Below are positions 34,551-53,098 of a stretch of 64,000 nt of DNA, in pieces (within the stretch, counting starts at the first letter, position 1; every line of letters begins with the position of its first letter). The stretch lies in NCBI GenBank assembly GCA_035712365.1, contig DASTAW010000050.1, forward strand, positions 1 through 64,000. Reading direction: 5' to 3'. The notes beneath the pieces were generated by a model. It had not been told where the DNA came from. It saw only the letters and a program-made list of their open reading frames with translations, and made no database searches. A program made the translations under genes and the position numbers. The DNA is from Terriglobia bacterium. GTDB lineage: Bacteria; Acidobacteriota; Terriglobia; UBA7540.

Positions 34551-36869
34551 TCACCGTGCCCGCGTCTCGTAGTTTTTCCAGTCGAGTTTAGTGTCCCTCA
34601 GCGGCAGGCCGTGCGCTTTCGCATACTGGTTTCGGACGCTCTCCACGTCGTCGTACCACTTGTCCAGCGGCAACAGAATTTCGCGGTAGATCAGGTAACT
34701 CATATCCACCGTGCGCACCGGCAGGTGGTCCTTTACATCATCCACTTCATCCAGATATTTCCGCCCGTTCGCTTCCGCCACTCGCGGCAGCCAGCTCTGG
34801 TACCACGTCTCCACCGCCTGGTGGTACGCCTCGTTCCGCTGGCCTCGAATCTCTTCCGCCGTGTCCAGCGCCCGGTCCAGCGCCGCCACCGCCCGCTCGA
34901 ACTGAACACTTGCAGCCGCTGTCTCGGCCTGCCGCAGCGCCCCGTCTACCTGGTTCATCTCCCCGATCATTTCCAGGTTCTGCCGGTACAGCCCCGCAAT
35001 CGAGAGGTAAACCTGAAGGTTATATTTCTGGAACTCCACCGACCTCCGATTCCTGTTCAGCAGGTCGAGCAGTTCGTCGTTCGCGGGCATCGACTCCTGC
35101 GCCATCTGCACCCGCCGGGCATTGGCCTTGCCCCAGTCGTAGCCCAATCGCAGATATTCGCCCTGCGGCACCGGGGGCAGCGGCAGGGTCTGGTCGCGCT
35201 CTGGCCGTCTGGGTTTGAAGATCTGATTTGAGTTTCCGAAAAGGGGCTTGCGGGCGGAAGAAGGTTCAGTGTCCCAACTGCTTTCCCAGAACTCCGCCTG
35301 CGTGCTCATCAGTTGGTAAAGCCGTCCGATATTCTGGCCGCCCTGGCCGTAGAACAGGCGGTAAAAGCTGTCTCGCGCTTCGGCAGGCGTGGGCGAGCCC
35401 GGATGCCATGCCCAGGCCGGAGCGGTTGCATATCCCAGCCAGAACGTCTCCGGATGCAGCCCTTCATCGCCCCATCCTGCGATAAACACGCCGATGAGAT
35501 CGGCATTCTGCCGCGATGAGTCGAAGGAGATGTGCCGGTACATTTCCTCGAGCCGATCACCGATTCGGACGTGGTTGAAAAGCTGTGAGGGAGGCAGCCC
35601 GTAGTAGTTGGGGAACAACGGCTCCACGCCTTCCGTCGAAGTGTAAATCATCTGCTGGATGCCATGCTCCTTGAAAGCACGGTCGAATTCCGGCCCATAG
35701 ACCTCGCCATTCACCAGATAGGATGGCAATGAGGGAATGTCATCCACCACCAGGGGATATTCTCCCCAGAAGATTACCTTTCGGCCGCGCTCGTGAAGAT
35801 AGCCCGCCGCCTGGTCGAGAAATTGCGCTTCCACCTTGCCGACGCTCCCCAGCTTCTTCGCCAGTTGCCCCTCGTTGCACTGCTCGTTGTCGGCCATCCC
35901 CACGTAGTAAGGTTCGTCGGTCGAGAGTGCAAAATAGTTCACGCCCTTGGTCGCATCCAGCAGGTCCTGGTACATTCCCTCCAGCAGCTTGTACGAGTCC
36001 GGGTTCGTGGTGCAGAGCTCATAATTGCTGTCCGGAAATTCCCGCAGCTTCGCGTATTCCGGATGCTTCAGAATGAACGCAACGTGCGCCGGGCCGTCCA
36101 GAAATGGGACCAACTGCACGTGGTACTTCAGCCCATAGTCCGTCAACTCCTGCAATTGCGCCGGCGACAGCGCATAGGGGTCCACCACGGCGGGCGCGCT
36201 CTTGAACTCAAAATGTCCATTGAGTTTGATGGAAAATCCGTTGATTTTATAGAACGCCGCCTGCTTCAGCGCCTGCTTCAGCACTTCCATGTGTTCCAGA
36301 TGATGGTTATCGTCCCAATAGATAATGCGCCGCTCGAGGTCCGGCCAGTCGGTGATGCTGGCCTCCGGCAGCCACAGCTTTCCCTGGGCATGCTTCACCA
36401 GTTGCACCAGCGTCTCAACCCCGTAGAACAATCCTGTCGGCGCGTTGGCCGTGATCTTGATTCCCCCGCCCGCCAACTCCAGCCTGTAAGCCTGTTCTTC
36501 CAGCGCCTGCTTGTTCTTGTCCGTTGCCTGCCCAATCTCGACTGACCCTGGCTGAATCACCAGCTCAATTGCGCTGCCTCGACCGCGTGTTTCAAGGCTA
36601 AGACCGTGGCGCGTCGCGAGACCGTCCTTCAGGCTTTCTACGGCTACGTCGTCGGGCTTCACGCCCTGGCCCAATAGCAGACGCCAGCCGCTGCCGATTT
36701 CAAAATCTCCGCCCTTCGGTTCCACTTTCTGCGGGGCAGGAATCACGTTGTAACCGCGTTCCAGCAGCGTCCCTGGGGCTGCTGCACGGGCCACTGGCAT
36801 CCCACCAATAACCACAAACGCAAAGACCACGAAAATCAGCACGCTACTCAAACGAAAACTCGCTCTCAT
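34551..36869 (-). CDS. Exported GH20 beta-N-acetylhexosaminidase, copy 1 (intact)
   Basis: GH20 enzymes remove terminal N-acetylhexosamine from glycans. The 772-residue product has a signal peptide (residues 1-29), the N-terminal GH20 accessory domain (YNVIPAPQKVEPKGGDFEIG) and a TIM barrel with GLFYGVETLVQLV and DWPDLERRIIYWDD. The predicted catalytic Asp318-Glu319 pair is in ALSTDEPYYVG. A long helical C-terminal region (about 560-770) is less typical. ATG 36869 follows CGGAGGACCAG. Copy 2 lies 88 bases upstream on the same strand, and similarity extends into the leader, so they arose by tandem duplication. Confidence 0.88.
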   Translation of the reverse strand: MRASFRLSSVLIFVVFAFVVIGGMPVARAAAPGTLLERGYNVIPAPQKVEPKGGDFEIGSGWRLLLGQGVKPDDVAVESLKDGLATRHGLSLETRGRGSAIELVIQPGSVEIGQATDKNKQALEEQAYRLELAGGGIKITANAPTGLFYGVETLVQLVKHAQGKLWLPEASITDWPDLERRIIYWDDNHHLEHMEVLKQALKQAAFYKINGFSIKLNGHFEFKSAPAVVDPYALSPAQLQELTDYGLKYHVQLVPFLDGPAHVAFILKHPEYAKLREFPDSNYELCTTNPDSYKLLEGMYQDLLDATKGVNYFALSTDEPYYVGMADNEQCNEGQLAKKLGSVGKVEAQFLDQAAGYLHERGRKVIFWGEYPLVVDDIPSLPSYLVNGEVYGPEFDRAFKEHGIQQMIYTSTEGVEPLFPNYYGLPPSQLFNHVRIGDRLEEMYRHISFDSSRQNADLIGVFIAGWGDEGLHPETFWLGYATAPAWAWHPGSPTPAEARDSFYRLFYGQGGQNIGRLYQLMSTQAEFWESSWDTEPSSARKPLFGNSNQIFKPRRPERDQTLPLPPVPQGEYLRLGYDWGKANARRVQMAQESMPANDELLDLLNRNRRSVEFQKYNLQVYLSIAGLYRQNLEMIGEMNQVDGALRQAETAAASVQFERAVAALDRALDTAEEIRGQRNEAYHQAVETWYQSWLPRVAEANGRKYLDEVDDVKDHLPVRTVDMSYLIYREILLPLDKWYDDVESVRNQYAKAHGLPLRDTKLDWKNYETRAR

Positions 36870-36957
36870 CTGGTCCTCCGGTCGTTCTTCAGGATCACAA
36901 CAGGCAAGGGAGTCCGCCGCAACATCAACGTCCGATGCAGTCGCACTTCCCTCGCCT

Positions 36958-39354
36958 TCAATAGTGGTATCTCTGCCGCAGCATGGATGGTCCCCAATTC
37001 CAGATGGGGTCACCCTTAATCACAGTATTCGTGTCGTTCCAGTCAAATGTTTTCGTTCGGGCCGGCAGGCCGTGCGCCTTCGCATACTGGTTTCGGGCGC
37101 TCTCCACGTCGTTATACCATTTGCCCAGCGGCAGCAGCAATTCCCGGTAGATCAGGTAACTCATGTCTACGGTCCGCATCGGCAGGTGGTCCTTTACATC
37201 ATCCACTTCATCCAGATATTTCCGCCCGTTTGCCTCCGCCACTCGCGGCAGCCAGCTTTCATACCACGTCTCCACTGCCCGGTGATAGGCCTCGTTCCGC
37301 TGGTCTCGAATCTCTTCCACCGTGTCCAACGCCCGATCCAGCGCCGCCACCGCGCGCTCGAACTGCACATTCGCCGCCGCTGCCTGCGCCTGTTTCATCG
37401 CTCCATCAATCTCGTTCATCTCCTCGATCATTTCCAGATTCTGCCTGTACAGCCCCGCAATCGACAGGTAGACCTGAAGATTATATTTCTGAAACTCGAC
37501 TGACCTCAGATTATCGTGCAACAGATCCAGCAGTTCGTCGTTGGCAGGCATCGACTCCTGCGCCATCTGCACCCGCCGGGCATTGGCTTTGCCCCAGTCA
37601 TATCCCAATCGCAGATACTCGCCCTGCGGCGCCGGCGGCAGCGGCAGCGTTTGATCGTGGGCTGGCCGCCGGACTTTATATACTTCACGAGAGTTGCCGA
37701 AAATCGGCTTGCGAGCGGACGATGGCCCCTCATCCCAGCTATGGTCCCAGGTCTCCGCCTGCGTGCTCATCAATTGGTAAAGCCGTCCGATATCCCTGCC
37801 GCCCTGGCCCTAAAAAAGGTGATAAAAACTCTCGCTTGCTTCAGCCGATCCCGGCGAATCCGGATGCCAGGCCCAACCGCCTGCGGTCACATATCCCAGC
37901 CAGAAAGTCTCCGGGTGCAGCCCTTCATCACCCCAGGCCATTATGAGAACACCGATTAAGTCAGTCTCCTTTCGGGCCCAGGTGAATGACACCTCCTGAT
38001 ATGTCTTGTTCAACTCCGAGACCGGGGCCTGGCCTCCGCCGCGTGAAGAATTGAACTGGGCAGAAGCCGGCAGAAGATAATAACTGGGAAACAGAGGTTC
38101 CGTACCTTCGGGAGCAGTCCGAATCATTCCCCGTATCCCGTGCGCCTTGAGGGCCCGCGCAAACTCCGGCGTCCCATTATAATTCGCGCCCCGGGTTACC
38201 AGGTACGTCGGCAGCGAAGAGATATCACCGGCCACCATCGGATATCCCGCCCAGAAGATTACTGTCCGCCCACGATCATGCACGTAGTTCCCTGTCGTTG
38301 TTAAGTATTTTGCCAGGAGCTTGCCTGTGCTGCCGAGCTGCTTCGCCGTTTGCGCTTCGCTGCATTGGGCGTTGTCGGCCAAGCCCACGTAATAGGGTTC
38401 GTCGGTCGAGAGCACAAAATAGTTAACGCCCTTCGTGGCATCCAGCAATTCCTGGTACATGCCTTCCATCAGCTTGTAGGAGTCCGGGTTCGTGGTGCAC
38501 AGCTCGTAGTTGCTGTCGGGAAACTCCCGCAACTTCGCGTATTCCGGATGCTTCAGAATAAATGCAATGTGACCCGGCCCATCGATATAGGGGATGAGCT
38601 GGATATGATCTCGCAACCCAAAATCGGTCAGGTCCTGAAGTTGTTGAGGCGAGAGAGCGTAGGGGTCCACTACGGCCGGTGCGGTCTTGTATTCAAAATG
38701 CCCGTCCAGTTTGAGGGCGAATCCGTTGATCTTGTAAAACGCCGCCTGCTTCAATGCCTGCTTCAAGACCTCGGTCCGCTCCAAATGGTGGGCATCGTCC
38801 CAGTAGATGCTGCGCAACTCGAGGTCCGGCCAGTCGGTGATGGTTGCCACCGGCAGCCACAGCTTTCCTTGGGCATGCTTCACCAGTTGCACCAGGGTTT
38901 CAACCCCATAGAACAATCCCGTCGGCGCGTTGGCCGTGATCTTGATTCCGCCGCCCGCCAGCTCCAGCCTGTAGGCCTGTTCTTCCAGCGCCTGTTTGTT
39001 TTTGTCCGTTGCCTCGCCGATAGCCACCGATCCTGGCTGTACAACCAAATTAATTGCAGGGCCTCGTCCCTGTGTTTCAAGCGTAATTCCGTGGCGCGTC
39101 GCCAAGCCCTCTTTCAGGCTTTCCACCGCCACATCGTCAGCCTTCACCCTCTGGCCCAATTGCAGCCGCCACCCGCTGCCGATTTCAAAATCCCCGCCCT
39201 TCGATTCCACCTTCTGCGGCGCGGGAACCACGGTGTAACCGCGTTCAAGCAGCGTGCCTGGGGCTGCCGCGCTGGCCAACGGCATCCCAACCATAAGCGC
39301 CAGGGCCAAGGCCACCAAAAGCAATCCACCACTCAAACGAAAAACTGCCCGCAT
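36958..39354 (-). pseudogene. GH20 beta-N-acetylhexosaminidase, copy 2, interrupted by in-frame amber codon
   Basis: This paralogue begins MRAVFRLSGGLLLVALALAL and matches copy 1 over its whole length. After 514 codons it meets a TAG (37810-37812) where copy 1 has tyrosine: FYHLF-stop-GQGG against FYRLF-Tyr-GQGG. The frame then continues intact, in the same phase, for about 283 codons to the TAA-class stop at 36958. The stop therefore arises from one base change, not a frameshift. The truncated product would keep the signal and barrel, with Asp-Glu at 318-319, but lose the helical C-terminal part. A recent mutation, a sequencing error or readthrough are all possible. Confidence 0.8.
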
Positions 39355-41737: not shown

Positions 41738-41759
41738 CGCCTGTCCTGGCAGACAGGCG
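41738..41759 (+). terminator. Perfect 8-bp hairpin after the methyltransferase gene
   Basis: CGCCTGTC (41738-41745) pairs with GACAGGCG (41752-41759) around a six-base loop, starting eight bases after the methyltransferase stop. No U-tract follows; instead a TATAAT (41765-41770) lies immediately downstream and could be the -10 box of the next gene, although no good -35 box is spaced from it. Confidence 0.45.
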
Positions 41760-41812
41760 CGTTATATAATCACTCCCTTGCGGGTCAATTGACATCCGTG
41801 ATTGGGAGTAAG

Positions 41813-44800
41813 ATGAATCAGTCTTGGAAAAAAGTCGTCCTCATTTCGGGCGCGATTGTTGCCGCTGCGCTCGTTCCCTTCCTCGCCATCCAGCGAGAGT
41901 CCGATGCCCATCCGGGAAACGGCACCGCTGCCGCGCAGCCACCTACCGCATGGTCCATGGCGCAAGCCAAGGCGCCGGATGCCGCAACCCTTCAGACCTG
42001 GCGCAACGTGGGCAAGGCGTACTACGAGCAGGGCAAATATCCGCAGGCGGCGGACGAATTTCAGAAGGTGGTCAAGTCGGGCCATGCTGTCGCCACGGAC
42101 TATCTTGACCTGGGCCTCGCCTACACGCAGGCGAACGACCTCAACCCGGCGCTTTCGGCGCTCACCACTGCCAAGCAGATGGCGCCCACGCTGGTTGCCG
42201 TTGACTACAACCTGGGGATTCTGGACAAGCGCGAGCTGCATTACGGGCCGGCCGAAGAAGCTTTCAGGAAAGTCCTTGCCGCTGATCCTGACGATCCGGC
42301 CACACTGTTCAACCTGGGCACCGTCTATTTTGCCGAACGCAAGCTCGGGCCTGCGCTCGACGTCCACGAGCGGCTGAATAAGATAGGCTTTGAGCGCGGC
42401 CAGAATTTTTATGTCGCTTCCCTGTTCCGCACTTTCACCATCCTGGTCCGGATGGGCCGCCGGGATGAAGCGCAGAAGGTGCTCAAGCTTCACCAGGAAT
42501 ACAGCGATAAGGTGCCCGGCATTTCTCTCCAGAGTCCGGCCCTCGAAAAAGGCAAGTACGGAGCTGTGCTGGTTCCGGCTGCGCCGCCGGTGCAGGTGGC
42601 GGGCGGGGCTGCCGCGCGTCCTGTCGATTTCCGCGAGATCACTTCGCAACTGGATATCTCTACGCGCGGCGGAGGGGAGGCCGAAAGCGGAGATTCAGCC
42701 GAAATCAAGGCGGCGGATTACTCGCCGGACTTTGCTCAATCGAAGCTCCTGCCGCTGCTCGGCGCCTCGATTGCCGTCGGGGACTATGACGGCGACTCGC
42801 ATCCCGATCTTTACCTCGTGAATCCCGCTGGCCGCAACCAGCTATTCCACAACAGCGGCACAGGAACCTTCACTGACGTTACGGCGAAGGCCGGAGTGGA
42901 AGGGCCGGGGCATTCCGTTTCCGCCACTTTTGCCGATTATGACAACAGCGGCAACCTCAGCCTGTTTGTGGCCGGCCTGGGCGGCGTCCACCTCTACAAG
43001 AACGACGGAAAAGGGACGTTTACGGATGTTACGGAGAAGGCGGGATTGAAGCCCCAGCCGGGCGAGGTGGATACGCGCGCGCTGCTGTTTGATGCCGACA
43101 ATGACGGCCTGCTCGACCTTGTCGTCACATCCTACACCAACCTGAACGACCCGCCTCATGAGGCGAGCTTCCGCTTTCCTGACAACTTCCCACCCGCAGC
43201 CATCCACTTTTACCGCAACAACGGCAATGGGACCTTCACCGACATCACCGAGGCGACGGGCCTCGGAGACGTCCGGGGCCGTTTTCGCAGCGCGTTGTTT
43301 GCCGACTTCGACGGCAACACTTATCCCGACCTCGTTTTTTTCCGCGATGACGGTCCGCCGGTGCTCTTTGAAAACCTCGGGGGCGACAAATTTCAGGACC
43401 GGTCTCGCGAGGCGGGCGCGGCCTTCAGCAGGCTCACCGCCATTGGCGGCGCTGTCGCCGATTTCGACCACGACGGCAGGTTCGATCTTGCACTCTGGAC
43501 CACGGACGGCTGCGAAGTTCTCAGGAACAATGGCAACGCCAGATTCACGCCCTTTCCGGACCTCCCGGCCATCAAGCCGCCTGCTCCTTTGCTGGCTTTC
43601 CGGGGACTCGCCGCCGACATCGACGGCAACAGCTATGTAGATCTGCTGGTGGCCGACTCTGCTGGAAAACTGCACCTGCTGGCCAACCGCCTGGGGCGCT
43701 TCCACGAGGAAGCCACCCACCTGCCGATCAGCAACTCCGCCAAGCTCGCCTCGCTGGGCGCTACCTGGATTGGCAAACCCGGCGTGCTCGATCTGGTCGG
43801 CACTACCCGCAGCGGAACGCTGGCCGCGTGGGCCAAGGCGGGACTTCCCGAACACTGGCTGGAAATCAGCATGGAGGGTTCAAAGAGCAACAAGCAGGGC
43901 GTGGGATCGGAAATCGAGCTGAAGCAGGGAAACTTTTATGACAAGGTGCTGATCAGCAGCGGCCCGGCGTATGTCTACACCGGAAACCTCGCAAAGCTGG
44001 ATGTGGTGCGGGCAACCTGGCCGACCCAGATTGTCCAAAATAATCTTGCCGTCGCCACCGATTCACCCATTCGCTTCCGCGAGTCGGAGCGCCTGGCGAG
44101 TTCCTGCCCCATGCTCTACGCATGGAACGGCAGGCAGTTCGTTTTTGTGACGGACATCCTCGGCGTGGGTCCGCTGGGCGAGCTGGCGCCCGACGGCACG
44201 CGGACCAAGCCCTATTCGCGCGAGTTCATTCGGCTGCCGGACACTTTCGAACCGCGCGATGGAAGCTACGAATTCCAGATGACGGATGAGCTGCGGGAGG
44301 TTGATTATTTTGACCGGCTGCACCTCGTGGCCGTGGACCATCCTGCCGGCGAAAAGATTTATGCCAATGAAATCTACGCTTCCACGCCATCGGAGCCCCG
44401 GCTTTATGCCGTTCGCGGCGAGCAGTTGCCGGTGTCGGCTGTGGATGACCACGGCAACAATGTTTTGCCGCTCCTCACCAAAGCCGACCATCGCTACCCT
44501 CACGGCTTTGAGCGCCTGCGCATTCCGGGCATGGCCAAACTGCACTCCTTGACGCTCGACCTCGGCCATCTTCCCCAAGCCGGGCGCGTCTCGCTGTGGC
44601 TGACAGGATGGGTTTTCTGGACCGACTCGAACGGATCGAGAGCGCTGATGCACGACCCCTCGACGCCCATGGTCTCGCCGTACGTGCAGGTGCGCGACAG
44701 GCAGGGGAAGTGGGTCACCGTCATTCCCGATATGGGCCTGCCCAGCGGAACCAACCGCACCATGCGCGTTGACCTGACGGGTAAATTTCTCTCAGCCGAC

Positions 44801-45379
44801 CATCACCTGCGCATCGTCACCAACCTCTGCGTTTACTGGGACCGCATCTTCTTCACCCGCAACGACCGCGTCGTACAGCCGGACCGCGCGATCGGACCCC
44901 AATATGCCGATCTCCATTATCGCGGCTTTTCTACGCCTGTCACCGATCCGAGGCACGTTCGCCCGGACCATTACGAATACGCTTCGCTGATGGACCGCGC
45001 GCCGTGGAACCCCATGCGCGGCTTTTATACGCGTTACGGCAGTGTCGAGAAGCTGGTGGGCCAGGCGGACAATCAACTGGTGGTGATGTCCACTGGAGAT
45101 GAGATGACGGTGCGCTTCAGCGCGGGAGGATTTCCTCCGCTGCGGCAGGGATGGGCGCGGTCACTGTTCCTCGATGCCACCGGCTACGCGAAGGACGGCG
45201 AACCCAACACGGCTTATGCGGCCACGGTCGCCCCGCTTCCCTTCCATGCCATGACGAATTATCCGCCCGGCGCTCGGGACCGCGCTCCGGATGATGCGGG
45301 CTATCGCGACTATCTGAGGAACTACCAGACACGGCCGTCGTACCAGTTGATTCCGTCGCTGGCGCCGCCGGTGAATTGA
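41813..45379 (+). CDS. Very large exported TPR / FG-GAP (VCBS) repeat protein
   Basis: The product (1188 residues) begins with a membrane or signal segment (KKVVLISGAIVAAALVPFLA). TPR repeats follow (about residues 55-195; KAYYEQGKYPQAADEFQKVV, DYNLGILDKRELHYGPAEEA). From about 310 to 720 there are at least six FG-GAP/VCBS blades with calcium-type loops: DYDGDSHPDL, DADNDGLLDL, DFDGNTYPDL, DFDHDGRFDL, DIDGNSYVDL and a weaker DYDNSGNLSL. The rest has an ASPIC/UnbV-like part and a C-terminal domain of about 400 residues that I do not recognise. ATG 41813 has GGGAG upstream. A periplasmic or surface assembly role is inferred from the domains. Confidence 0.85.
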   Translation: MNQSWKKVVLISGAIVAAALVPFLAIQRESDAHPGNGTAAAQPPTAWSMAQAKAPDAATLQTWRNVGKAYYEQGKYPQAADEFQKVVKSGHAVATDYLDLGLAYTQANDLNPALSALTTAKQMAPTLVAVDYNLGILDKRELHYGPAEEAFRKVLAADPDDPATLFNLGTVYFAERKLGPALDVHERLNKIGFERGQNFYVASLFRTFTILVRMGRRDEAQKVLKLHQEYSDKVPGISLQSPALEKGKYGAVLVPAAPPVQVAGGAAARPVDFREITSQLDISTRGGGEAESGDSAEIKAADYSPDFAQSKLLPLLGASIAVGDYDGDSHPDLYLVNPAGRNQLFHNSGTGTFTDVTAKAGVEGPGHSVSATFADYDNSGNLSLFVAGLGGVHLYKNDGKGTFTDVTEKAGLKPQPGEVDTRALLFDADNDGLLDLVVTSYTNLNDPPHEASFRFPDNFPPAAIHFYRNNGNGTFTDITEATGLGDVRGRFRSALFADFDGNTYPDLVFFRDDGPPVLFENLGGDKFQDRSREAGAAFSRLTAIGGAVADFDHDGRFDLALWTTDGCEVLRNNGNARFTPFPDLPAIKPPAPLLAFRGLAADIDGNSYVDLLVADSAGKLHLLANRLGRFHEEATHLPISNSAKLASLGATWIGKPGVLDLVGTTRSGTLAAWAKAGLPEHWLEISMEGSKSNKQGVGSEIELKQGNFYDKVLISSGPAYVYTGNLAKLDVVRATWPTQIVQNNLAVATDSPIRFRESERLASSCPMLYAWNGRQFVFVTDILGVGPLGELAPDGTRTKPYSREFIRLPDTFEPRDGSYEFQMTDELREVDYFDRLHLVAVDHPAGEKIYANEIYASTPSEPRLYAVRGEQLPVSAVDDHGNNVLPLLTKADHRYPHGFERLRIPGMAKLHSLTLDLGHLPQAGRVSLWLTGWVFWTDSNGSRALMHDPSTPMVSPYVQVRDRQGKWVTVIPDMGLPSGTNRTMRVDLTGKFLSADHHLRIVTNLCVYWDRIFFTRNDRVVQPDRAIGPQYADLHYRGFSTPVTDPRHVRPDHYEYASLMDRAPWNPMRGFYTRYGSVEKLVGQADNQLVVMSTGDEMTVRFSAGGFPPLRQGWARSLFLDATGYAKDGEPNTAYAATVAPLPFHAMTNYPPGARDRAPDDAGYRDYLRNYQTRPSYQLIPSLAPPVN

Positions 45380-45983: not shown

Positions 45984-46925
45984 TCAGACGCCAGGTCCTG
46001 CGGCATCGGTGGAAGGCGCAGGCCAAGGCCCCGGCGCGGGCCGGCGGGATCCCCGGCCATCCGGCCGCAGGCATGCCCGATCAGCCACCCTGCTGCGGAG
46101 TCTCGATATGGCGCCCGAGTGCAGTTGCGAAACCCGCGATTCGTCGATGCCAAGCCGGCAGCCAATCTGCTTCATGGTCAGCGCCTTTTTGTAGTAGAGC
46201 GCGATAATGGAGCGCTCGCGTTCGCTCAGGCAGCGGAGCGCGCGGGAAAGCAAATCTCTCTGTTCGCGGCGGTAACACAGCTCGAAGGGGCTGGCATCCT
46301 GCGAGGCTGGCAGGTCCTCTTCGTTCACACGCCTGCTGCTGTCCGGCAGAAAGCGGGCGTTGGTACCTTCAAAACCAAGCCGCTGCAACTCCGCCGCCCG
46401 TTCATGCCAGCGCTCGAGGCCCATACCCATCGCGCTGGCCATCTCTGCCGCTTCCGGCGCGCGCCCCAGACTGCGTTCAAGGGTCTGGCAGGTGGATTCG
46501 ACTTTCTTGACCCTGCGCCGCATGTCACGCGAGGCGTAATCCTGGTCTCGCAGCGAATCGAGCATGGCCCCACGGATGCGATAGCGCGCGTAACTTTCGA
46601 TCGATGGTCCCCTGGCAGGATCAAATTTGCGCACAGCGTCGATCAATCCCACCGTCCCGTCGCTGACAAGGTCGTCAAGCTCGACGTGCGCCGGCAGACG
46701 GCCGCGCAACTGAAAGGCAATCCGCTTGACCAGCGGCGCCAGCTTCACCACGAGGTCGTTGGCGCTACTCCCATCGTGGGCCGGCCCGCGTTTCTGTTCC
46801 GGGCGCGGATTGCCGGTGGAACACATCCTGCCGCCGCCAGGGTTGCCAGCGGAACGCCGGCGGCGCTCGCGCCCATCGTAGTGATGTTCATCAGGGTTTC
46901 GAGATATGCCAGGTTGGATTGCCAC
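45984..46925 (-). CDS. FliA/WhiG-type RNA polymerase sigma factor
   Basis: The 313-residue product has region 2 (HVELDDLVSDGTVGLIDAVR, KFDPARGPSIESYARYRIRG, AMLDSLRDQD), region 3, and region 4 (LSERERSIIALYYKKALTMK, QIGCRLGIDESRVSQLHSGA). These are the hallmarks of sigma28-type factors. GTG 46925 has AAGGAGG seven bases upstream, so the first 50 residues, which are basic and low-complexity, are likely translated. An internal ATG at 46826 is the alternative. The C-terminal 35 residues are a Pro/Arg-rich tail not usual for FliA. No flagellar genes are near, so its regulon is unknown. Confidence 0.85.
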   Translation of the reverse strand: MAIQPGISRNPDEHHYDGRERRRRSAGNPGGGRMCSTGNPRPEQKRGPAHDGSSANDLVVKLAPLVKRIAFQLRGRLPAHVELDDLVSDGTVGLIDAVRKFDPARGPSIESYARYRIRGAMLDSLRDQDYASRDMRRRVKKVESTCQTLERSLGRAPEAAEMASAMGMGLERWHERAAELQRLGFEGTNARFLPDSSRRVNEEDLPASQDASPFELCYRREQRDLLSRALRCLSERERSIIALYYKKALTMKQIGCRLGIDESRVSQLHSGAISRLRSRVADRACLRPDGRGSRRPAPGPWPAPSTDAAGPGV

Positions 46926-47981: not shown

Positions 47982-48632
47982 ATGTCCCAAATCTTTCATC
48001 GCAGCATGAACGCCATTGCCAAAGCGTCGCTCTATGGCATCGTCATTCTTATTTGTGCGCTCGGCTACGGCATCTGGCAGGTCAACCAGTCGTCTTACTT
48101 CACGTACATCCAGCGTCCTATTCCGCAGCCGGTGCCTTTCAGCCACGAGCACCACACAGCGCAGCTTGGCATTGACTGCCGATACTGCCACACGTCGGTT
48201 GAAAATTCGTTCTATGCGGGTATTCCTCCCACGCACATCTGCATGTCCTGCCACTCGCAGCTTTGGACGAACGCCGACATGCTGGAGCCAGTGCGGGCGA
48301 GCTACCGCACCAATGATTCGATCCTGTGGAACAAGGTCAACGCCCTGCCGGACTTTGTCTTCTTCAACCACAGTATTCACATCAGCAAAGGAATTGGCTG
48401 CACGACGTGTCACGGGCAGCTTGGCAAGATGCCGATCACCTGGCGGGAAAATACCCTCTACATGAGGTGGTGCATCAACTGCCACAAGCATCCGGAGCGT
48501 TACGTCAGACCGAAGAAGGACGTATTCGATCCGATTTACACTCCGCCTGCCAACCAGATCGCCATGGGCAGGAAATTGGTGAAGCAGTATGAGATAAGGA
48601 GTCTGACAAGTTGCGAGACGTGTCACCGATAA
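47982..48632 (+). CDS. actA: Alternative complex III pentahaem cytochrome c subunit ActA
   Basis: ActA is the membrane-anchored multihaem cytochrome of alternative complex III, a quinol-oxidising complex that replaces cytochrome bc1. The 216-residue product has one N-terminal membrane helix (about 16-33) and five CxxCH sites: residues 66-70, 87-91, 140-144, 164-168 and 211-215. Five haems match the known ActA type. The last CxxCH is at the very C-terminus. It is the first gene of the operon, 22 bases before actB. Confidence 0.94.
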   Translation: MSQIFHRSMNAIAKASLYGIVILICALGYGIWQVNQSSYFTYIQRPIPQPVPFSHEHHTAQLGIDCRYCHTSVENSFYAGIPPTHICMSCHSQLWTNADMLEPVRASYRTNDSILWNKVNALPDFVFFNHSIHISKGIGCTTCHGQLGKMPITWRENTLYMRWCINCHKHPERYVRPKKDVFDPIYTPPANQIAMGRKLVKQYEIRSLTSCETCHR

Positions 48633-48654
48633 ACAGCGCACACAGGAACAACCA

Positions 48655-51600
48655 ATGAAGGACAAGAACTTCATCGACCTCGCCTCAGTCCGGGCGGGTC
48701 TGGAAAATGGGGGCAGGAAACGCTTCTGGCGAAGCCTGGATCAATTGGCTGACACCGAAGAGTATCAGGAACTTGCGCGGCGCGAGTTCCCAACAAATCC
48801 TGTCAAACCTGCCGAATCCGGAGTCAGCCGGCGAAACATGCTGAAGCTGATGGCTGCTTCCGCCGGCCTCGCGGGATTGACGGCCTGCACAAAGCTTCCG
48901 ATCGAACACATTGCGCCCTACGTTAGACCTTCCGAAGAGTTTGTTCCTGGCCACCCCTTGTTCTACGCCACCTCAATGCCTCGCCCCGAAGGAGGCGCTC
49001 TGGGCCTGTTGGTGAAGAGCGATATGGGCCGCCCCACCAAGGCGGAAGGTAATCCCGACCACCCGGCCAGCCTTGGCAGCACGGACGTTTTTGGCCAGGC
49101 ATCGGTGCTCGACCTGTGGGACCCCGACCGTGCTCAGACGGTGTTGCACGAAGGCGCCATCACCAACTACAGCGAGTTTCTGGAATTACTGGGCCAGTTG
49201 CGAAGTATGTACCTGACCCGGAAGGGCGCAGGATTTCGAATCTTGACTGAGACGATTACGTCGCCAACGCTGGGCAGCCAACTGGCGTCGCTGACGGCGC
49301 AGTTCCCGGAAGCGAAGTGGCATCAGTACACGCCTGTGAACCGCCACGCGGAGCGGGAGGCCCTTCGGGCGGTGTATGGCGAACAGCTAAGCGCATACTA
49401 CCGGTTTGACCAGGCTGATGTGGTGCTTGCGCTGGATTCCGATTTCCTGTGTTCGGGGCGGGCCGGCGTACGCTACACTCGCGACTTCGCTGACAAGCGC
49501 CGGGTCCGGGACACGCACAGTTCCATGAACCGTCTGTACGTGGTTGAATCGATGGCCACGATCACAGGCGCTGCGGCCGATCACCGGCTTCCGCTAAGGT
49601 CCAGCCAGGTTGAGGCTTTTGCCACGGCGTTGGCTGCGGCGGTGGGGGTGAAAGGAATAGATGCCGGCGCACAGGCCCCGGCCGGAGCTTCGGCGGGGTG
49701 GCTTGCCGGCGTGGCGCGCGATCTCCAGCGGCACGGCGGAGCCAGCATCGTTCTGGCCGGTGAGCATCAGCCGCCCATTGTCCATGCCCTGGCGCACGCC
49801 ATCAACGCGGCGCTCGGCAACAACGGCAAAACGGTCATCCACACGGCCCCGATTGAAGCGCGGCCGGTCAACGAGATGGAATCCATCCGGGAACTCGCGG
49901 GCGACATGAATTCCGGTAAGGTCGAAACCCTGTTGATCATCGGCGGCAATCCGGTCTACAACGCTCCCGCCGATCTGGACTTTGAAAAGGCGCTCGATCG
50001 CGTCAGCCTCCGCCTGCGGCTGGGAATTTATAATGATGAAACGTCTTACCGCTGCCACTGGCTGGTTCCTCAGACCCATTTCCTGGAATCGTGGAGCGAC
50101 GAACGCGCTTACGACGGTACGGCGTGCATCGTTCAGCCGCTGATTGCGCCGCTCTATGGCAACCATTCCCCGCATGAAATCCTGGGAGCGCTTCTCGGAG
50201 ACCCTGGCCGCACTCCGCACGACTGGGTCCGCGGCTACTGGTCTGACCAGAAACTCACAACCTCCGTTGAGTACGAAACTTTCTGGGAGACCGCCCTCGA
50301 AAAAGGCGTGATCGCAGGGACCGCCTTCCCGGCCAGGACCGTGACCGCCAAGCCCGGCTTCGCCGCTGCCCTGGGCGGGCGCGCAAACGGCGGGAGCGCG
50401 GGCGCCGGTCCAATGGAGATTAGCTTCCGCCCCGACCCGACCGTCTGGGACGGCAGCTTCACCAATAATTCCTGGCTCCAGGAACTGCCCAAGCCGCTGA
50501 CCACCATGACCTGGGACAACGCAGCCTTTATCAGCCTTGCCGCCGCCGAGCAACTGGGCGTCACGAATGGCGATGTGGTGGAGATCGCTTACGAGGGGCG
50601 CAAGCTTCGTCTCCCCGTCTGGATCCTTCCCGGCCACGCGGACGGCTGTGTGACGGTCAGCTTCGGCTACGGCCGCTCCCGCGCGGGCCACGTGGGCAAT
50701 GGAACAGGATTCAACGCCTATTCCATCTGGACCTCCGATAAGCCCGGCTTCGGGCCGATTTCGCAGCCGCGGAAAACCGGCGAGCGTTACCATCTTGTGA
50801 CCATGCAGCGCCACAACATTATCAACGCGGGCGGCCGCAAGCAGGAGGAGGAGAGCAAGAGCGCCTTCGAGCGTGAGCTGGTGCGGGTTGCAAGTCTCGA
50901 CGAGTTTCGTTCAGACCCCGATTTTGCGGCGGACCCGGCCGAAGAAACGGTCCAGGCCCCCAACCTCTATCCCCAGTATGACTACAGCACGGGATATCAG
51001 TGGGCCATGGCGATTGATCTGAATAGCTGCGTGGGCTGCAATTCCTGCGTGATCGCCTGCTATGCCGAGAACAACATCGCGGTGGTTGGCAAAGACCAGG
51101 TGGACAAAGGGCGCATCATGCAGTGGATCCGGGTGGACACGTACTGGCGCGGCGGCCTCGAGAACCCGGAAACCTATCGTGTGGTGATGCCCTGTATGCA
51201 CTGTGAAAATGCGCCTTGCGAATATGTGTGCCCGGTGGGGGCCACCGTGCACAGTCCCGAAGGGCTCAACCTGATGGTTTACAACCGCTGTGTCGGTACG
51301 CGCTACTGCTCGAACAACTGCCCCTACAAGGTGAGAAGGTTTAATTTTTATCTCTTTTCCGACTGGCAGACGCCCAGCCTTTACGGCGTGCGGAACCCGG
51401 ACGTTTCGGTCCGCAGCCGCGGGGTGATGGAGAAATGCACTTACTGCGTGCAGCGCATCAAGGAAGCCGAAATCAGGACGCAGGAAGAAAATCGCACCAT
51501 TCAGGACGGCGAAGTGGTTACCGCCTGTCAGCAGGCTTGCCCCACCCAGGCGATTATTTTCGGAAATAAGAACGATCCCAAGAGCAAAGTTGCAGCCCAG

Positions 51601-51720
51601 AAGGCGCAATCGAGGAACTACGTTTTGTTAGCCGATTTGAACATACGTCCACGGACCTCGTATCTGGCAACGCTGCGAAATCCGAATCCGGAGATCAAGG
51701 AGCAAGGGGATGTCCGTTAG
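48655..51720 (+). CDS. actB: Alternative complex III iron-sulfur/molybdopterin-like subunit ActB
   Basis: The product (1021 residues) fuses a molybdopterin-oxidoreductase-like domain with a ferredoxin-like domain, the usual form of ActB. A twin-arginine motif (Arg59-Arg60, [14 protein letters not shown]) lies internally, as in other ActB proteins. The C-terminal part binds Fe-S clusters through [35 protein letters not shown] and CTYC...CQQACPTQ. Known ActB proteins lack the Mo cofactor, and the first domain here may also be structural. The stop overlaps actC by 11 bases. Confidence 0.94.
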
Positions 51721-53098
51721 AGAACCCGAAGACGTGGGTACCCTGGTCGTCCCGGGAAGCGACGTCCTTGCCCCCGGCCACACGTACGGGTCCGTCACCG
51801 ACAAAATCAGCGCCATTGTCTTAACGCGGGGCACCGGCAACAAATATAAGGTGGGATTCGCGACCGCCGTGGCGCTCTTCATTGGGCTCAACATCGGCAT
51901 CACGGTCCTGATGGCCTATGGCGTGGGCGTATGGGGCATCAACATTCCGGTGGGCTGGGGCTACGCCATCACGAATTTCGTCTGGTGGATCGGAATCGGC
52001 CACGCCGGCACGCTGATTTCAGCCTTTCTGTTGCTGATGCGCCAAAGATGGCGCACCTCCATCAACCGGTTTGCCGAGGCCATGACTCTGTTTGCCGTGG
52101 CCTGCGCGGGCATGTTTCCTCTGCTGCACATGGGCCGGCCGTGGCTTTTCTACTGGCTGCTTCCCTACCCGGACACGATGGGTGTCTGGCCGCAGTTCCG
52201 CAGTCCGCTGGTCTGGGACGTTTTTGCAGTTTCCACGTACGCGACCGTTTCCCTGCTGTTCTGGTATGTCGGGTTGATCCCCGATCTTGCGACGGTTCGG
52301 GACCGCGCCACCAAGCGGTTCAAGCAGATCATCTACGGAATTTTTGCCTTGGGCTGGAGAGGTTCGGCGCGCCACTGGGAGCGGTATGAAATGGCGGGCC
52401 TGCTGCTCGCGGGGATCGCAACGCCGCTGGTTGTTTCTGTCCACACTGTGGTGAGCTTCGACTTCACCATTGCCATCCTTCCAGGCTGGCACAGCACGAT
52501 CTTCCCTCCCTATTTCGTTGCGGGCGCCATCTATTCCGGCTTCGCCATGGTGATTGCGCTGGCCGTGCCCTTGCGGAAATACTATGGCCTCGAAGACTTC
52601 CTCACCATCCGCCACCTGGACAACATGGGCAAGATCATGCTGGCCACGGGGCTGATTGTCGCCTACAGCTACGTTATGGAAACCTTCATGGCGTTTTACG
52701 GCGGCAACAAGTTTGACGTTTACATGATCATGAACAGGATGACCGGGCCTTACGCGACTGTTTACTGGGTGCTGATCGCCGTGAACCTCGTCATCCCGCA
52801 GTTGCTGTGGTCATCGCGCATCCGGCGCAACCCGCTCTACCTTTTCCTGCTGTCCTTCTCCGTGCAGACCGGCATGTGGATGGAACGCTACATGATTATC
52901 GTCACCGCCCTGCATCGCGATTTTGTCCCCTCGTCCTGGGGAATGTTCGTCCCGACGCGCTGGGATTGGATCGTCTTTGTCGGCACCATCGGCTTCTTCT
53001 TTACGCTCTTCTACCTTTTTATCCGCTTCCTTCCCATGATCTCGATCTTCGAAATGCGGGATCTGGTCCACAAGACCACAGAGGAGGCCACACCTTAA
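51710..53098 (+). CDS. actC: Alternative complex III NrfD-like membrane subunit ActC
   Basis: This 462-residue protein has about ten membrane helices and belongs to the NrfD/PsrC family, which binds quinol. Typical segments are NFVWWIGIGHAGTLISAFLL, LFAVACAGMFPLLHMGRPWL and VSVHTVVSFDFTIAILPGWH. ActC provides the quinol-oxidation site of alternative complex III. The start overlaps the actB end by 11 bases, and actD begins directly after the stop. Confidence 0.94.
   Translation: MSVREPEDVGTLVVPGSDVLAPGHTYGSVTDKISAIVLTRGTGNKYKVGFATAVALFIGLNIGITVLMAYGVGVWGINIPVGWGYAITNFVWWIGIGHAGTLISAFLLLMRQRWRTSINRFAEAMTLFAVACAGMFPLLHMGRPWLFYWLLPYPDTMGVWPQFRSPLVWDVFAVSTYATVSLLFWYVGLIPDLATVRDRATKRFKQIIYGIFALGWRGSARHWERYEMAGLLLAGIATPLVVSVHTVVSFDFTIAILPGWHSTIFPPYFVAGAIYSGFAMVIALAVPLRKYYGLEDFLTIRHLDNMGKIMLATGLIVAYSYVMETFMAFYGGNKFDVYMIMNRMTGPYATVYWVLIAVNLVIPQLLWSSRIRRNPLYLFLLSFSVQTGMWMERYMIIVTALHRDFVPSSWGMFVPTRWDWIVFVGTIGFFFTLFYLFIRFLPMISIFEMRDLVHKTTEEATP

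Follow-up and report, generated by a model that had tools for sequence, protein, structure and literature searches.

A TPR and FG-GAP propeller protein of an acidobacterial genome carries a widespread C-terminal domain whose genes recur beside UnbV propeller, cytochrome and RnfD-like genes

The gene and its upstream region

The window analysed here, a stretch of 64,000 nucleotides from contig DASTAW010000050.1 of a Terriglobia bacterium, contains on its forward strand a gene at 41813..45379 (stop codon included). It is a single open frame of 1188 codons with an ATG start, as the initial annotation had it, and encodes a protein composed of TPRs, an FG-GAP propeller, an UnbV module and a long C-terminal domain (CTD). 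A GGGAG lies immediately 5' of the ATG, as judged by eye. The hairpin and the TATAAT that had been reported just upstream are both present in the sequence: an 8-bp perfect inverted repeat with a 6-nt loop (41738..41759, +; arms CGCCTGTC and GACAGGCG) is followed by the hexamer at 41765..41770 (+). The promoter scanner returned no sigma-70-like pair around these elements upstream of 41813, and the terminator scanner returned no forward terminator there, the hairpin not being scored as one.

Several other genes of the window were recognised by eye. GH20-like genes occupy 34551-39354, where an intact gene (34551-37013) adjoins a second copy on the reverse strand (36958-39354) with an in-frame stop near 37810. 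A sigma-factor-like frame is found at 45984-46925 (-), and frames resembling the cytochrome, MoCo/FeS and NrfD-like genes of alternative complex III at 47982-53098 (+).

Domain architecture of the N-terminal two thirds

The protein begins with a hydrophobic segment (residues 8-28; 41834..41896, +), a putative signal or anchor that was found by eye, in which no lipobox was seen by eye and which appears as a helix at 9-28, with low confidence, in the AlphaFold2 model. TPRs follow at residues 57-231 (41981..42505, +), where they are assigned by Pfam TPR families (TPR_2) and seen as helical pairs in the model. The third element is a beta-propeller of the integrin/CRTAC1 type at residues about 268-678 (42614..43846, +), matched by Pfam FG-GAP_3 (1.1e-36) in six stretches and containing six calcium-type loops of the pattern Dx[DN]x[DNS] (residues 324, 375, 427, 498, 550 and 602), two of which are strict DxDxDG. 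The membrane segment, the TPR repeats and the at least six calcium-loop blades that had been read from the letters are thus all recovered. The product is probably a large secreted protein of a soil bacterium, its N-terminal helix suggesting a place in the envelope or the periplasm, and the large extracytoplasmic scaffold envisaged in the initial annotation is plausible and would fit the anchor, the TPRs and the propeller.

The whole protein was modelled from a 70-sequence alignment with good confidence (mean pLDDT 88.6, pTM 0.87). Among PDB structures this model best matches murine CRTAC1 (9etn), with Z 34.6 across 444 residues; Foldseek ranks 2-8 are the fungal, GlcNAc-binding propeller lectins PVL, AAL2 and PAL. 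These lectins share a propeller of the calcium-blade type with the window protein (E 4e-9 to 6e-8, 18-20% identity, a likeness of fold only), whereas the TPRs, the UnbV module and the CTD lie outside the matched part.

Between the propeller and the CTD we found an UnbV/ASPIC-like, that is transthyretin-like, module (residues about 681-760; 43853..44092, +), which had been overlooked before. A 20-sequence profile of this region matches 13 UnbV_ASPIC-type domains of relatives (hhalign 99.6%, E 3.9e-24), and Pfam assigns PF07593 in 4 of the 4 scanned among those 13; in the window protein Pfam does not report PF07593 up to E 1. CRTAC1 is a propeller-TTR protein, and the module at 681-760 therefore identifies the core as a propeller-TTR unit of the CRTAC1 type. 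The order of an FG-GAP calcium-blade propeller and then an UnbV/TTR module is common to cartilage acidic protein 1 (CRTAC1/ASPIC) and the bacterial UnbV_ASPIC family. Unlike these, the window protein adds TPRs at its N-terminus and has an UnbV module below Pfam detection; it is not a plain member of the family, because a CTD of 425 residues follows the module.

The C-terminal domain

The CTD makes up the last third of the protein (residues 764-1188; 44102..45376, +) and starts with SCPxLY. According to the initial annotation the C-terminal residues matched nothing, and this holds in family, profile and fold searches. The window CTD has no Pfam and no NCBIfam family up to E 0.1, and a scan of 35 CTD members against both databases gave only three stray families (E 0.02-0.08, one member each). 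A search with a 35-sequence profile found no match among PDB sequences. Folded alone, the CTD gives a confident prediction (pLDDT 90.6, pTM 0.89), for which Foldseek returned nothing from the PDB at E<=0.001. The structure prediction and the profile searches with this part alone, both proposed earlier as checks, yielded a confident fold and no known domain of clear function.

One part of this fold looks familiar. Within the whole-CTD model, VIA-align suggests a galactose-binding-like jelly roll at residues about 863-1019 (44399..44869, +), with Z 7-9.5 to chains of the discoidin, F5-8C, CBM32-35 and APC10 type; the matches embrace many unrelated members of the fold, at 7-18% identity in the rows shown. 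The likeness to the galactose-binding-like superfamily would be that of the jelly roll, which in the window protein interrupts a larger all-beta domain. The parts outside it (764-862 and 1020-1188) have no clear PDB match as judged within the whole-CTD model, and a fold missing from the VIA-align lists does not count as evidence against that fold.

Residues D781, E804, E829, D834, R1000, K1127 and C765 are invariant across 70 homologues, and 19 of the 20 invariant columns in the alignment of these homologues fall in the CTD, a figure to be taken as a lead and not as a test because the CTD served to collect the homologues and the N-terminal part is missing from some of them. We identified no cofactor motif in the CTD.

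Some other relationships were considered and rejected. An origin of the CTD in plasmids, viruses or phage structures was one of them: no plasmid match and no relative on a viral contig was found, the five BFVD matches are weak (E 3.8e-4 to 7.1e-4, TM-score <= 0.30), and the hits in the PDB to toxin complexes and to chains of phage tails reflect common folds or long alignments of poor quality. The alignment with aldos-2-ulose dehydratase covers only the N-terminal part of that enzyme.

Distribution of the domain

The CTD is encoded in 144 of the 396 genomes from the phylum of the window (Acidobacteriota), about a third, and the genome of the window itself has one copy. It is also matched in 41 of 296 genomes of a Bacteroidetes sample, 28 of which have a near-full profile match; these near-full matches (30 places, E 1e-100 or better) lie in frames of 925 to 1229 codons. 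Divergent CTDs in the same sample are found in proteins of 548-644 residues (L115 and L155-L158), where UnbV and propeller queries found nothing. In two other Bacteroidetes loci (L159 and L160) the match covers the two ends of the CTD profile and skips the stretch of the jelly roll. Given the proteins that have it without a propeller and the gap in these two loci, the CTD is a domain in its own right that carries a jelly-roll-like insert. It is a widespread and undescribed domain, and would give the family databases an unlisted domain of 400 residues.

Genes accompanying the CTD genes

To describe the neighbours we use two labels. MHC stands for a membrane protein made up of a pentaheme cytochrome and TPRs; the protein of locus L044, for instance, has a Cytochrome_C554 match, five CXXCH and TPRs, the latter forming the C-terminal end of the MHC protein. 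UnbU denotes an RnfD-like membrane partner. The names UnbV and UnbU originate from enediyne clusters, and we use the second as a label for the membrane partner, not on the basis of a sequence comparison with an enediyne UnbU. The likeness to the enediyne clusters lies in an UnbV propeller with a membrane protein; the membrane partner here matches NQR2_RnfD_RnfE, in its C-terminal half only, at 35.2 bits over a cut-off of 27.7. The S[GA]AT-type flavinylation motif of RnfD/NqrB-like proteins is not conserved among 15 UnbU sequences. A redox role of UnbU is therefore only putative, and a covalent flavin on it was dropped.

Gene context was counted on the same strand within three genes for 67 CTD genes, namely that of the window and those at relatives' loci in its phylum (a 2-kb stub, L064, and nine later-fetched UnbU loci left out; 7 of the first twenty loci picked for holding two CTD genes). 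An UnbV propeller gene accompanies 30 of these 67 and is absent for 37; MHC is a neighbour of 13, UnbU of 8 and a nitrilase of 8. At least one of the four adjoins 34 CTD genes and none adjoins 33, including the window gene. The earlier statement that the gene stands alone is thus correct for the window, where no same-strand UnbV, UnbU, MHC or nitrilase gene lies within three genes, and does not hold for the family, whose members occur in conserved operons. The gene order is repeatedly either MHC-UnbV-CTD(-nitrilase) or CTD-UnbV-UnbU, the latter followed by a second UnbV gene in eight loci of the phylum; in the Bacteroidetes sample, 7 of 20 CTD genes have both UnbV and UnbU neighbours. The nitrilase gene, of the carbon-nitrogen hydrolase type, lies 3' of the CTD gene, for instance at L073:9749-10747 and L038:15965-16972.

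Co-occurrence across genomes

UnbU orthologues are present in 19 of the 396 genomes, all 19 CTD-positive, under a cut of E<=1e-97 that kept 19 of 46 genomes and was set after a gap had been seen. In 17 of the 19, UnbU and CTD share a contig at a distance of 2.6-3.2 kb; in the other two they are on different contigs. MHC orthologues, defined by E<=1e-120 (43 of 121 genomes kept, the cut likewise set after the gap to 1e-98 was seen), are present in 43 genomes, 41 of them CTD-positive (Fisher 7e-18); by genus the count is 33/35 (7e-12), the sole correction for kinship between genomes, which the Fisher tests ignore. The genomes dropped by the cut-offs are CTD-positive in 58 of 78 cases for MHC and 19 of 27 for UnbU. 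If every match is taken, 99 of 121 genomes are CTD-positive for MHC (E<=1e-20; 4e-36) and 38 of 46 for UnbU (E<=1e-5; 1e-11). GH20, present in 134 of the 396 genomes, served as control and showed no association, the CTD being found in 49 of these 134 (expected 48.7).

For MHC, a distance to the CTD of no more than 10 kb is seen in only 17 of the 39 genomes where its place is known. Among the 144 CTD-positive genomes, 85 have no orthologue of either membrane partner and 30 have no match to MHC or UnbU at all.

Candidate partners in the genome of the window

The genome of the window has 11 UnbV_ASPIC places and, on contig C62, a single full-length MHC orthologue (50% identity) with an UnbV gene on each side; one of these UnbV proteins has a twin-arginine-like start, MMNPSSRRDFLK, as seen by eye. 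Likely partners are therefore present in the genome, unlinked to the window gene. UnbU has no match there at E<=1e-5.

A quick maximum-likelihood tree was computed for 88 CTDs (midpoint-rooted for drawing only, some forks weak). In it the window protein groups with L031, on a long stem, within the large clade to which all 13 MHC-linked members belong; all 15 UnbU-linked members fall in a separate clade. L031, an acidobacterial record, is the nearest relative of the window protein (63%); the neighbourhood of the window gene is not conserved in it, because the downstream gene differs.

Ten UnbV propeller frames of 561-768 aa were also noted in the loci L116-L124 of this genome. By eye, several have twin-arginine-like N-termini, and they often adjoin TPR genes and large frames resembling TonB/Cna-type receptors.

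Proposed role and alternatives

The domain order, the conservation, and the association with UnbV propellers and with pentaheme cytochromes or RnfD-like membrane proteins, in operons and across genomes, are computed results. The relatives' neighbours include cytochromes and membrane electron carriers and so point to an electron-transfer system, as yet uncharacterised, that would lie outside the cell membrane. We suggest, with a probability of about 0.45, that the window protein is the docking or ligand-binding (scaffold) subunit of an electron-transfer assembly, extracytoplasmic and linked to the membrane, that has not been described before and contains propellers of the UnbV/CRTAC1 type; the associations are computed, and the activity we infer. 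The N-terminal helix would place the protein in the periplasm or on the envelope, and the TPRs may dock partner proteins, the pentaheme protein too ending in TPRs. The propeller-TTR core could pack against the separate UnbV propellers, and the CTD, home of nearly all invariant residues, would bear the ligand or catalytic function. Electrons would then move between the membrane cytochrome, or the UnbU/RnfD-like protein, and the assembly, the unlinked window gene presumably working in trans with the cytochrome and UnbV genes of contig C62.

The protein may instead be a surface glycan-binding protein or adhesin, with a propeller like that of the fungal GlcNAc lectins, the jelly roll as carbohydrate-binding module and the TPRs for display. 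The lectins at Foldseek ranks 2-8, the resemblance of the jelly roll to CBM32, CBM35 and discoidin, the GH20-like genes at 34551-39354 and the several UnbV genes of the same genome that adjoin, by eye, TPR genes and large receptor-like frames are all consistent with this. We nevertheless regard it as doubtful, as GH20 is unrelated to the CTD in the 396 genomes (49/134 against 48.7 expected), so that the control rules out a conserved GH20/GlcNAc link drawn from the neighbours in the window, and the genes that recur next to CTD genes encode redox or UnbV proteins. Somewhat less probable still is that the CTD is itself an enzyme, for instance an oxidoreductase or a hydrolase, delivered by the remainder of the protein: the seven residues named above as invariant in 70 homologues, its occurrence without a propeller and the resemblance of the propeller part to that of an enzyme, aldos-2-ulose dehydratase (Z 22.9), agree with such a role, but the search of the PDB gave no structure resembling the CTD at E<=0.001.

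The operon association could also reflect no more than how widely UnbV genes have spread among large environmental genomes, leaving the CTD protein with no steady partner. The 11 UnbV_ASPIC places of this genome and the many CTD genes that stand alone would fit this explanation, which we consider improbable in view of the constant spacing of 2.6-3.2 kb in 17 of the 19 UnbU genomes, the recurrence of CTD-UnbV-UnbU in the Bacteroidetes sample and the flat GH20 control.

The electron-transfer reading can be extended to a bolder form, which we offer only tentatively and think unlikely to hold in every part. Acidobacteriota and Bacteroidetes would possess an extracytoplasmic redox system, so far undescribed, in which either of two exchangeable electron carriers, a pentaheme cytochrome or the RnfD-like UnbU, connects UnbV/CRTAC1 propellers and the TPR-propeller-CTD protein to the inner membrane. 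The CTD would be a new catalytic or substrate-binding domain, and the window copy would serve the cytochrome version from an unlinked locus.

Relation to described systems

UnbV/CRTAC1 proteins span bacteria to humans, and our literature searches found no settled function for the bacterial ones; a conserved CTD with fixed partners provides named genes and operons open to genetic tests. CRTAC1-family genes adjoin hydrazine-synthase-like genes in one described case, where an FG-GAP/CRTAC1 gene accompanies multiheme cytochrome genes, as in the CTD relatives (PMC12758564); the cytochromes of that system differ, and the accessible text of the paper mentions neither the CTD nor an acidobacterial case. 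An ASPIC/UnbV paralogue is noted in Solibacter (PMC3174227) and 'calcium blades' are treated in PMC3123361. A description of the CTD or of MHC/UnbU-UnbV-CTD operons was found neither in the accessible parts of these three papers and PMC3192720 nor elsewhere in the literature covered, which excludes most subscription journals, so that absence is not proven.

At L035:10857-14994, and in the same place in L034, L036 and L037, two CTD genes are separated by three conserved genes. These code for a Trp_halogenase/FAD-type enzyme, a radical SAM enzyme and an Asn_synthase-type protein, which suggests a small biosynthetic cluster adjoining the UnbV-UnbU operon.
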